Source: Candidatus Geocrenenecus dongiae
GTDB lineage: Archaea > Thermoproteota > Nitrososphaeria_A > Caldarchaeales > Wolframiiraptoraceae
Direction: 5' to 3'
Assembly (NCBI GenBank): GCA_023267855.1
Contig: JALNLN010000004.1
Span: 1-64,000, forward strand
Length of the DNA stretch: 64,000 nucleotides
In this document: positions 26,166 through 30,962 of the stretch, piece after piece
Numbering within the stretch: position 1 is the first letter of the stretch
Layout: each line of letters begins with the position of its first letter
Notes under the pieces: model-generated
What the model saw: only the letters and a program-made list of their open reading frames with translations
What the model was told of the DNA's origin: nothing
Database searches by the model: none
Translations under genes and position numbers: made by a program

Positions 26166-27353
26166 TTATAGTAGAGGTGTTTGTCTATTTTCAACTATGT
26201 TGTTAAAGATTTTTATGAAATCTCTTTCTTTTCCAGATGGTATTATTGCTGAAGCTGCAAAACTATGTCCATCTCCCGTGCCTCCAACTGTTTCTGCGGA
26301 CTTCATTGTAAGTTTAGATGCAGGAGGCATCCTACCAGCCTCTATATACTCACTAAGCTTTCTAGGTGTTCTAACAGATACTTTAACTAACTCATCTTGA
26401 ATTTCTCCTAGACCGGGTATGCTCTTCTCAAAATTCATAAATCCCACCAAATACTTCTCCTGATCTATGATCGACTTATAGGATAACGTAGAACAGAACG
26501 TTCCAATAGTTTTCGATCCAAAACCCTTAAACATGTTTTCTAAGTGAAACCATTGGACGAAGCCTTCAATCTTCAATCTAGTTCTAGAGATATAGTTTAA
26601 AGCTTGGTTAAATTTAGATTTTCTTTCTTCTTCAAGTTTTTCTGCTTCTACGAAATCTATCTTACGTTGTGTGAGGTTTTCTACAGCTTTGTTTGGTCCT
26701 CCCCTATAGTAACCTACACTACCTATTATCGTTAGAGTTGTAGATATCTTGCTCCATGGTTTATCAAGGAAACTTATGTAGTATGATGTTTCCCTGCCTC
26801 TTCTAACTTCAACATCGCCTATCTTTACAGCATCTTCGAGAGGAATTTTATTAAGACTTTCTAGTTCTCCTGGAATCTCGGCGGATCCTACGACTGCCAT
26901 CCAAGCTGATTCTCTCACATCTTCAATATTCTTCATGAGTAAGTATGTTGCCGTCGAGCCACTTACATCACGTTCACCTCTGAAGCCATATAGTTCTGGA
27001 TTGAGATTTACGACATTCTTTGACTCCACCTTCACTGGATCATGGTGGTCTACGATGACTACTCTAGAACCTGACTCTTCAGCTATATTCTTTATCAGAT
27101 CTGCTTTTCCAGAACCAATATCGAGGTAGAGATATCTCTCAAGATTTGTTGAGTGGATAAGTTTTAGTATGGCTGGATGGATCTTCTCAATACATATTAA
27201 CTTGTAGTTTAAGCCAGTTTTCTTTAATGCTGTTACAGCTATCCCTGCAGCACAGAGTCCATCTGCATCATCGTGAAAAACTATACCTACAGTCCCACTC
27301 CAATTCTTAATCTCTTCAGCTACTTCTCTAAGTATTTTAGAGTAAATTTCCAT
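26166..27353 (-). CDS. DHH-family phosphoesterase, RecJ-like
   Basis: The protein has 395 residues. The DHH domain contains FHDDADGLCAAG (motif I), LYLDIGSG (motif II) and VIVDHHDP (motif III, the DHH triad); the C-terminal DHHA1 domain carries VGGTGDGHSFAASA. All metal-binding positions look intact. Archaeal members include the CMG-associated GAN nuclease and RecJ-like single-strand exonucleases. The identity within the family is not resolved by eye. It converges with pantoate kinase and sits near the DNA polymerase gene. Confidence 0.85.
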   Translation of the reverse strand: MEIYSKILREVAEEIKNWSGTVGIVFHDDADGLCAAGIAVTALKKTGLNYKLICIEKIHPAILKLIHSTNLERYLYLDIGSGKADLIKNIAEESGSRVVIVDHHDPVKVESKNVVNLNPELYGFRGERDVSGSTATYLLMKNIEDVRESAWMAVVGSAEIPGELESLNKIPLEDAVKIGDVEVRRGRETSYYISFLDKPWSKISTTLTIIGSVGYYRGGPNKAVENLTQRKIDFVEAEKLEEERKSKFNQALNYISRTRLKIEGFVQWFHLENMFKGFGSKTIGTFCSTLSYKSIIDQEKYLVGFMNFEKSIPGLGEIQDELVKVSVRTPRKLSEYIEAGRMPPASKLTMKSAETVGGTGDGHSFAASAIIPSGKERDFIKIFNNIVENRQTPLL

Positions 27354-28321: not shown

Positions 28322-30613
28322 TTAGAAGAAATCCATAAGAGAAGTTCCCCCAATACTCTTCAATTCCTCTATCTTTACTCCAAGTGGTTCTAGTACACGT
28401 AGACATGCGGGAGCGACTTGCTTCTCTATATAATAATCCCAGTCCACTTCTTCAGGATGAACTTTGAAGTATGGTTTAGCTCTTTTATAGAGCGGCCCAC
28501 TACCTTTCACTATTATGTATCCTACCTTATCTCCAGGTTGTATCTTCCATCCCTCCTGTACTAATTGACGTGCAACGTTTACGTGAGGTTGGGTTGCTTC
28601 ATACTCATCTAGAGACCTAGTTATCTGTTTCCATATTATGAGTTTTCTTAATTCTACTTCTCTATTAATAAGTTTCTTGATGTAGTTCTTGGAGATTTTC
28701 AATGCTTCATGAACATTGCCTGTTTCAAGTAGAGTCTTCACTGTATCTCTTTGAGCTTCTCTAGCTATGTAGCTCCAATCTCCTCTAACAGCTTCCAGTC
28801 CAACTATATCTATTATAGATTCTGAGGTTATTCCAGCATACTTCTTCTTCGCTTCTGTAAAGATCACCATCTTGTAGATCTTTTCTAGTTTCGCTTCTAG
28901 TCCTAAGTCTTCTTCTATCCATTTTAAGAACTTCTCGATTTTTCCAGTGTAGTTTTGGAGGAATAGAGAATCTGTATCAGAATATATTACCTTCATACCT
29001 AGTTCTGAAGCTTTCTTCATAGACTCCATTATAACATGTCTACCCCAACTCGTAGTTGCTTCAGCTACTTCTCTAGTATACCAGCGAGCTCCAGCCCACC
29101 CAGTGTACCCGTAGATAGCATTAGAGATAACTTTTATAGCTCTCTGTCTAGCATCTAAAACTCTTGCTTCAGTAGAGTTAGGATCAAGTGTTCTGAGCTT
29201 CTGCTGTATTTTTCTTCTTTCTTCTATCAATGTTTTTAGAGCACGTGGTAGGAAGCCTTCAGGCTCTTTCTTAAATCTATAGTTGTTTGGAGAAACGTAT
29301 TCTCCATCATCTGATAATGTATCAAATGAGATATTGTATTTTATCATGAGGCTAGGATACATTGATCTAAAGTCTACTACGGCAACATCTTTGTGGAGAC
29401 CCGGTTCTGGAGATTTCACTAATCCTCCAACATACGGTGTGGGTGTTATTTCAGGTTTCTTAGGTATAAGCTCGCCGAGTTCTACAGCTAGATACATTAA
29501 ATAATTCTCAACTCTAAAACCTGTTGAAGCTGTTAAAACATAGTCAGCAGGAATCCCCGTCAACTCGCTAAGACTGAAAATATATTCTTTTAAAACTTCA
29601 AAACATTTCAGTAAGGCTTCAGCCTTCTGCATAGAGTATTTCTTAACTCTTTCAGGATTCTTCTTCCATGTCTCCGCTACTTCCCATTCTTCTACTGTAT
29701 CTAATTCTAGTTTAAGCCCTAGATAGTCTACAAACTCTTCAAGTGTTTCTACCGTTAATTCAGGTATGTCTTTAGCCATGTCTTCTAGATCTATGTTTAT
29801 CCTACCTCTTATAGAGACATGTCCATGAATACTTGTATGTGGTTCAGAAGATAGTCTTCCTATGGTTAATCTTAATCCATGTCTTCTCGCTCTTTCTTGA
29901 AGATAATTCCAATGTAATCTATTTGATGAGAAGCTGACGAAAACGTCTGGATCATCTCTCTCAACAATCTCTACAAATTCTCTAAGAATTTTCTTTTCAT
30001 CTCCTGAAAGCTGTATCTTCTCTCCAGAAGAAGTTATAAGAGAGATCAGTATAACTGGATCTCTTTCAGGTCTAGGAGAACCAGCTTCAGAATAATATAC
30101 AAAATCTAGAGACATTATCTTAAGAGGCGGAAGTGTAGATACGCCAGCATATTCCACCTTATCTGTTTCAATTATCTTCAATGACCCTTGTTCTTTAAAC
30201 ATACTTTCATGGACTATTATATCACCCGAAGGCTTAACTCTGTTCTCCAGCAAGAACTTTATAGAAGGTCTAACGTCTTCTTCATAGACTTCAACATTCT
30301 TCATGTTCTTAATAATCTTCTTTGCAATTGACTCAACATCTTCTACGTTAACGTATACTTTAACTGCTTTCACAGACCTGCCCCTAATCTTTCTCGATAC
30401 TTCTTCAACTCGATATCCATGTGTTTTCAAGAATGCTACGATCTCTTCTACAACGTCTCCAACTATGTAAAAATTTGGAGAATATTCTTTCTTCACTACA
30501 TATGTTTCTCCGAGACTATCTTTACACCACAGCCATGCTATGGGTTTACCATCTTCAATTTCTAGAGCTATATCTAGTAGCCAAAGCTGCCTAACCATCT
30601 CTACAGATAACAA
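28322..30613 (-). CDS. polB: Family B DNA polymerase with substituted exonuclease motifs
   Basis: The protein has 763 residues. Polymerase motifs are intact: DFRSMYPS (414-421), KVISNAIYG (494-502) and YSDTDS (544-549). The 3'-5' exonuclease domain is present by length and alignment but its acidic residues are gone: Exo I reads LDFVYY (170-174 region, canonical D-x-E, here D170-F-V172), Exo II reads FSSNRLH (228-234, canonical YNxxxFD, here His234) and Exo III reads YSMQK (326-330, canonical YxxxD, here Lys330). The C-terminal SLMDFF resembles a PCNA-binding PIP box lacking its Gln. It should polymerise but not proofread. A small unknown gene lies 43 bases upstream. Confidence 0.93.
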   Translation of the reverse strand: MLSVEMVRQLWLLDIALEIEDGKPIAWLWCKDSLGETYVVKKEYSPNFYIVGDVVEEIVAFLKTHGYRVEEVSRKIRGRSVKAVKVYVNVEDVESIAKKIIKNMKNVEVYEEDVRPSIKFLLENRVKPSGDIIVHESMFKEQGSLKIIETDKVEYAGVSTLPPLKIMSLDFVYYSEAGSPRPERDPVILISLITSSGEKIQLSGDEKKILREFVEIVERDDPDVFVSFSSNRLHWNYLQERARRHGLRLTIGRLSSEPHTSIHGHVSIRGRINIDLEDMAKDIPELTVETLEEFVDYLGLKLELDTVEEWEVAETWKKNPERVKKYSMQKAEALLKCFEVLKEYIFSLSELTGIPADYVLTASTGFRVENYLMYLAVELGELIPKKPEITPTPYVGGLVKSPEPGLHKDVAVVDFRSMYPSLMIKYNISFDTLSDDGEYVSPNNYRFKKEPEGFLPRALKTLIEERRKIQQKLRTLDPNSTEARVLDARQRAIKVISNAIYGYTGWAGARWYTREVAEATTSWGRHVIMESMKKASELGMKVIYSDTDSLFLQNYTGKIEKFLKWIEEDLGLEAKLEKIYKMVIFTEAKKKYAGITSESIIDIVGLEAVRGDWSYIAREAQRDTVKTLLETGNVHEALKISKNYIKKLINREVELRKLIIWKQITRSLDEYEATQPHVNVARQLVQEGWKIQPGDKVGYIIVKGSGPLYKRAKPYFKVHPEEVDWDYYIEKQVAPACLRVLEPLGVKIEELKSIGGTSLMDFF

Positions 30614-30656: not shown

Positions 30657-30962
30657 TTATATATCTAGGTTTGTTTCTTTAATCTTTATCAATGGTATAG
30701 TTACATCGTTAGGTTCCGTAGATAGTTCGTCGCCAAATTTAATTTTCCCTGTAAATCTATTTAGATGTACAAACTTGTTTTTCGGAATTTCTTCAAGTCT
30801 ACAATAGTATATTACTGGAATTGTAGATGCTAGAGGTTGTAGGAATATGAATGCAGTCTTCTTCTCAACATCTAAGTTGATTAATGGTATTGGCATAACG
30901 GAACTGATGAGTACTAGTTCCTCGAAACTTCTAGTCTCTATCTTTATGTTCTCTACAACCAT
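30657..30962 (-). CDS. Hypothetical 101-residue protein upstream of polB
   Basis: The protein starts MVVENIKIETRSFEELVL and is predicted to be mostly beta strand, with no Cys pairs or membrane segment. Hydrophobic stretches (LVLISSVMPIPLINLD; AFIFLQPLASTIPVIYYC) alternate with charged turns. It is on the same strand as polB, whose start follows 43 bases later, so they may be one transcript. I do not recognise a family. Its proximity raises the possibility of a polymerase accessory factor, but nothing in the sequence shows this. Confidence 0.55.
   Translation of the reverse strand: MVVENIKIETRSFEELVLISSVMPIPLINLDVEKKTAFIFLQPLASTIPVIYYCRLEEIPKNKFVHLNRFTGKIKFGDELSTEPNDVTIPLIKIKETNLDI

Follow-up and report, generated by a model that had tools for sequence, protein, structure and literature searches.

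The window analysed here, a stretch of 64,000 nucleotides from the genome of Candidatus Geocrenenecus dongiae, carries on its reverse strand a gene (28322..30613) for a family B DNA polymerase of 763 amino acids, with a TTG start codon and an ATG at residue 6. The protein matches the Pfam domains DNA_pol_B (3.7e-64) and DNA_pol_B_exo1 (1.3e-17) and no other Pfam domain. Its nearest solved structure is that of Pyrobaculum calidifontis PolB, 5mdn (E 1.3e-165), followed by weaker matches to Thermococcales PolB (~1e-110) and, at merely 1e-37, to PolB1 (1s5j); the match to the PolB1 of the same genome reaches only ~1e-49. By best match and by its position in the trees described below, the gene is an archaeal PolB3 and not a PolB1 or PolB2. 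An AlphaFold2 model computed with 43 relatives as input (pLDDT 90.8, pTM 0.85) has a complete, confident fold that matches 5mdn with a TM score of 0.86.

Based on alignments, polymerase motifs A (VDFRSMYPS, 29351..29377, with Asp414), B (RQRAIKVISNAIYGY, 29105..29149) and C (YSDTDSL, 28964..28984, with Asp546 and Asp548), all on the reverse strand, are intact, confirming the original prediction that they are canonical. On the same strand, Exo I (SLDFVYY, 30092..30112) retains Asp170 and has its catalytic Glu replaced by Val172, Exo II (FSSNRLHW, 29909..29932) has His234 in the place of the catalytic Asp and Ser229 in that of a conserved Asn, and Exo III (KYSMQKAE, 29618..29641) retains Tyr326 and has its catalytic Asp replaced by Lys330. 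Asp170 is the only one left of the four exonuclease carboxylate ligands (D, E, D, D). A residue-by-residue alignment with 5mdn is in register (DIE/DFV, YNSNGFDW/FSSNRLHW and YVLDD/YSMQK), and the same register of the exonuclease motifs is recovered independently in multiple alignments that contain 28, 127 and 212 PolB3 proteins, so that the proposed replacement of all three holds. We infer that the protein lacks exonuclease activity.

The polymerase ends in a PIP-like C-terminal tail, SLMDFF (28325..28342, reverse strand), and a like tail is found in all 13 complete members of the family Wolframiiraptoraceae. The genome encodes PCNA, and the conserved tail is predicted to bind it, in agreement with what had been proposed from the window alone. 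A neighbouring gene (26166..27353, reverse strand) encodes a DHH/RecJ-family nuclease of 395 amino acids (Pfam DHH, 3.3e-09; NCBIfam RecJ_archaeal, 1e-55, which is below the cut-off). Upstream of the polymerase, an ORF of 101 amino acids at 30657-30962 on the reverse strand has no Pfam or NCBIfam match. The neighbours are mixed, and no DNA-repair operon surrounds the gene.

Distribution and Descent of the Exonuclease Losses

All 13 orthologues found in Wolframiiraptoraceae, a family that has been assigned to the order Caldarchaeales (PMC9246946), are exonuclease-dead (58-73% identity; one is a partial sequence). Together with the window gene, 14 of 14 family members carry the exonuclease motif losses, which thus exceed chance, and the 13 orthologues rule out a sequencing error or an accident of a single genome. 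A wider set of PolB3 proteins was assembled from three sources: relatives, 397 genomes sampled from the phylum, and named GTDB genomes. Among the 211 sequences that are readable at all four carboxylate sites, a count that still contains near-duplicates between collections, 118 have all four carboxylates, none has three, three have two, 72 have a single one and 18 have lost every one. The distribution is thus bimodal, with 118 proteins retaining all four and 90 retaining none or one. The nonredundant set comprises 182 rows, 106 intact and 76 exonuclease-dead. The exonuclease positions are invariant across the 106 intact proteins; the motif A Asp is present in 76 of the 76 exonuclease-dead proteins and both motif C aspartates in 75 of them. 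An unprompted scan for positions that are at least 97% invariant in intact PolB3 proteins and missing in the family of the window gene returned 12, of which five lie in the exonuclease motifs, four in the uracil pocket (17, 47, 97 and 119) and three elsewhere (44, 90 and 343). At this threshold, no lost invariant position was found in the polymerase domain.

The original prediction had allowed that acidic residues might lie at neighbouring, misaligned positions. We scanned the exonuclease domain for columns that are acidic in exonuclease-dead but not in intact PolB3 proteins and found four (277, 289, 309 and 332), none of them inside a motif core. Only column 309 is general to the exonuclease-dead set (0.89), and it sits in the 305-314 helix, 21 residues ahead of the Exo III position. 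The 5mdn register, the multiple alignments and this column scan together rule out misalignment or displaced acidic residues.

In a tree of the 182 sequences from which the exonuclease motif columns had been removed, 70 exonuclease-dead rows form one clade with a local support of 100. About five changes of exonuclease state are needed on this tree in all, that is, about four losses besides that of the main clade. The clade is retained in trees of the polymerase domain only, both in a quick tree (clade of 37 rows, SH-aLRT 97) and in a careful one of 80 rows, where bootstrap/SH-aLRT values are 99/98 with incomplete convergence of the bootstrap. An artefact of relaxed exonuclease columns is ruled out by these polymerase-domain trees. 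Our phylogenies show that the exonuclease-dead state is ancestral to one large, old PolB3 clade. The losses in the window gene were therefore inherited from an old ancestor, and the original description of them as three independent losses does not stand for this gene.

The main exonuclease-dead clade spans Bathyarchaeia, Wolframiiraptoraceae (the family of the window genome), Brockarchaeota and Korarchaeia; its named members are Bathyarchaeota, Wolframiiraptor, Brockarchaeota, Methanodesulfokora (Korarchaeia), Geothermarchaeota and an unplaced Thaumarchaeota bin. The motifs were lost separately in Methanomethylicota (L086, with L197), family f21 (L201 with L217, and also L218, where motif C is lost too) and the very divergent L029/L030. 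In L218 (genome G378), disruption affects the exonuclease motifs and polymerase motif C (YADNR), and this PolB3 is apparently fully inactivated. L029/L030 (genomes G023 and G026 of family f3, from the same order as the window genome) are PolB proteins at 33% identity with lost exonuclease motifs, a motif C of YIDTDGI and a very long branch; they may represent a separate or virus-derived PolB.

Selection and the Read-Ahead Uracil Pocket

Among five congeneric orthologues, omega is ~0.07-0.10 in the exonuclease domain and 0.04-0.09 in the polymerase domain, as estimated with several orthologue pairs saturated at synonymous sites. As judged from these sequence comparisons, we show that the exonuclease fold and the polymerase site are both maintained by purifying selection. 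Together with the retention of the motif C aspartates in 75 of the 76 exonuclease-dead members, the low exonuclease-domain values bear out the earlier argument for selection for an exonuclease-dead polymerase. The ratio of exonuclease-domain to polymerase-domain identity is 0.73 in the exonuclease-dead clade versus 0.90 in intact relatives. Low omega combined with lower clade-wide identity indicates that the domain is retained without catalytic constraint, and it is probably kept as a structural element and DNA-binding surface.

Archaeal PolB proteins sense uracil in the template ahead of synthesis. The pocket of KOD polymerase includes Tyr7, Pro36, Tyr37, Arg97, Phe116 and Arg119, of which Arg97 contacts the phosphates flanking the uracil (PMC8596578). 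The N-terminal domain of the window PolB3 (30224..30589, reverse strand) contains a remnant of this pocket, as identified by alignment with KOD and by column counts. In the KOD-window alignment, the KOD numbering of which sets the pocket columns, Tyr7 corresponds to Leu17, Tyr37 to Asn47, Arg97 to Ala97, Phe116 to Pro116 and Arg119 to Lys119, and Pro36 is kept as Pro46. Of 89 intact TACK/Asgard PolB3 proteins, 88 have Arg at position 97 and one has Lys; in the exonuclease-dead clade, Arg occurs there in 0 of 70. The five other pocket positions were scored together, with either Phe or Tyr accepted at 116; all five are kept in 88/89 intact versus 13/76 exonuclease-dead proteins, and the window PolB3 keeps one of them (Pro36). 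These replacements suggest that it tolerates uracil in the template. The independently arisen exonuclease-dead proteins of family f21 (L201, L217) retain the uracil pocket, indicating that exonuclease loss can precede pocket loss and that the two are not obligatorily linked.

Other Polymerases and Gene Neighbourhoods

The original prediction had called for a second, exonuclease-proficient PolB or a PolD to be sought, and the window genome (1.44 Mb, 98% complete) contains both: a PolB1 with intact exonuclease motifs (DIE, FNGDDFD and YSFYD) and a PolD composed of DP2 and of a DP1 with intact phosphoesterase motifs. PolB2 was not detected in this genome, the PolB matches of which number two only. 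Y-family polymerases were detected neither here nor across four genomes of the family, and a family-X palm match in the window genome scores below the curated cut-off. In a set of 129 genomes of known exonuclease state, the DP2 subunit of PolD occurs in 56 of the 66 that are exonuclease-dead and in 4 of the 63 that are intact; this link is strong by count, but it amounts to just 3-4 phylogenetically independent contrasts and is not significant. Replacement of Y-family polymerases by exonuclease-dead PolB3 proteins is unsupported as a general rule, because Y-family polymerases are not rarer in exonuclease-dead genomes (12 of 39, plus one marginal match, versus 2 of 37 intact genomes). Six good genomes of genus g4, which belongs to the same family, show no PolB3-level match, and neither do those of families f2 and f4 of the same order, so that the function of PolB3 appears dispensable.

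Gene neighbourhoods were clustered with antisense ORFs included, which made the clustering noisy. A RecJ/DHH gene lies near PolB3 at five exonuclease-dead loci (L034, L035, L036, L070 and L076) and at two intact ones (L062 and L088). Such a nuclease gene recurs beside PolB3 from Asgard to Wolframiiraptoraceae, in some cases directly downstream; it is a recurrent neighbour and at most a putative partner in joint action. In Bathyarchaeia and in exonuclease-intact crenarchaea, dnaG is convergent beside PolB3, and its presence next to both kinds of PolB3 supports their orthology. A small Toprim-domain protein adjoins dnaG and exonuclease-dead PolB3 at L037:9638-10063 and at ten more loci, nearly all of them from Bathyarchaeota. 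In four genomes from two genera of the family (G008, G009, G011 and G012, locus L034), the genes for PolB1 and exonuclease-dead PolB3 are at most a few kb apart on the same strand, an arrangement that is absent in the genome of the window.

Possible Functions and Comparison With Known Polymerases

We consider it moderately probable that the window PolB3 serves damage tolerance as an accessory polymerase that does not proofread and is tethered to PCNA, with PolD and PolB1 replicating the chromosome. Such an enzyme would polymerise without proofreading, would not stall ahead of template uracil and would be tethered to PCNA by its C-terminal tail. Its accessory role would comprise extension past lesions and gap filling, and chromosome replication would fall to PolD and PolB1, which have intact proofreading motifs. 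In the window genome, in which neither Y-family polymerases nor PolB2 were detected, the exonuclease-dead PolB3 would then be the main bypass polymerase. In PolD-bearing Thermococcus kodakarensis, PolB acts in repair and not in replication (PMC6759347), and Sulfolobus PolB3 is nonessential and tied to the damage response (PMC8100216). Across the exonuclease-dead branch, PolB3 probably copies damaged DNA while other polymerases copy accurately. More tentatively, we propose that deep in Thermoproteota, with PolD and PolB1 replicating, PolB3 lost proofreading as well as uracil read-ahead and turned into a dedicated damage-tolerant enzyme, the archaeal counterpart of Pol zeta, present in many lineages and previously unrecognised.

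A role like that of Pol alpha, whereby the enzyme would briefly extend primase products and hand them to PolD or PolB1 for correction of its errors, seems rather unlikely. Eukaryotic Pol alpha is likewise an exonuclease-inactivated family B enzyme (PMC7544198, PMC2527604), and the PIP-like tail, the nearby PolB1 gene in Wolframiiraptor and a related genus and the convergent dnaG of Bathyarchaeia would all suit this role. However, no primase subunit gene is seen beside the window PolB3, dnaG also accompanies exonuclease-intact crenarchaeal PolB3 and so is unlinked to exonuclease loss, and a function missing from g4, f2 and f4 appears dispensable. The same absences are what would be expected of a decaying gene, on which selection would have been relaxed once PolD and PolB1 sufficed, first in the exonuclease domain and before loss of the whole gene. 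The reduced identity ratio of the exonuclease domain points the same way, but its low omega, the persistence of the motif C aspartates in exonuclease-dead proteins across 30 family-level groups and the confident, complete predicted fold make decay unlikely.

It is quite improbable that proofreading in trans, whether by the RecJ/DHH nuclease encoded nearby or by the DP1 subunit of PolD, keeps the window PolB3 accurate in the cell. Although the DP1 motifs are intact and the RecJ-family gene recurs beside PolB3 in several exonuclease-dead lineages, immediately downstream in some, it also accompanies exonuclease-intact PolB3 proteins and is therefore not a compensation. It is not among the PolB3 neighbours at loci of Bathyarchaeia, the largest exonuclease-dead group, and polarity is described as differing among archaeal RecJ proteins (PMC5615345). 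A structural scaffold, for which polymerisation is not the function, was once proposed in the case of PolB2 (PMC2527604); given that all polymerase motifs of the window PolB3 are intact and that PolB2 itself turned out to be an active polymerase (PMC8764526), such a role is very unlikely here.

PolB3 usually counts as an enzyme that proofreads and serves in replication or repair, and the reviews of archaeal PolB proteins consulted give PolB2, not PolB3, as inactivated (PMC4104785, PMC2527604, PMC7544198). We found no earlier description of an exonuclease-dead PolB3 clade in the open-access papers searched. If proofreading and uracil sensing are indeed missing across this large clade, models of archaeal replication and the annotation of PolB3 genes will need to be revised in Bathyarchaeia, Caldarchaeales, Korarchaeia and other groups, and the division of labour among PolD, PolB1 and PolB3 will become testable. 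The protein would also be a natural exonuclease-minus, uracil-tolerant scaffold of thermophilic origin that might serve in PCR on damaged or deaminated DNA.

By comparison with known systems, the window PolB3 shares family, domain order, size and fold, as well as motifs A-C and a PIP-like tail, with archaeal PolB3 proteins (crenarchaeal Dpo3, 5mdn and the Thermococcales Pfu and KOD enzymes), but differs from them in the replaced catalytic residues of Exo I (Glu), Exo II (Asp) and Exo III (Asp) and in the eroded uracil pocket. A working exonuclease characterises the PolB3 proteins known so far but does not define descent within the family, so the window gene is a variant PolB3. Archaeal PolB2 (Dpo2) is similar in being a family B protein with no exonuclease and a proposed role in damage tolerance. 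The original prediction presented the window gene as the reverse of PolB2; this contrast fails, as Sulfolobus islandicus PolB2 is an active polymerase without exonuclease that acts as a translesion extender (PMC8764526). In PolB2, the YGDTD of motif C is replaced and the gene sits in an operon of its own with arCOG07300 and an inactive RadA (PMC4104785), whereas the window protein has a canonical YSDTD, and both its best match and the tree assign it to PolB3. The likeness to Pol zeta that had been noted is upheld as a functional resemblance, one that extends to PolB2, and a translesion role is plausible. Eukaryotic Pol zeta (Rev3) and Pol alpha are, like the window PolB3, family B enzymes with an inactivated exonuclease and an intact polymerase site. 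Unlike them, the window PolB3 ends at its PIP-like tail, with no C-terminal zinc/iron-sulphur domain through which the B subunit could be contacted, and has no large N-terminal extension; in sequence it is far closer to archaeal PolB3, so that the relationship is one of analogy only.
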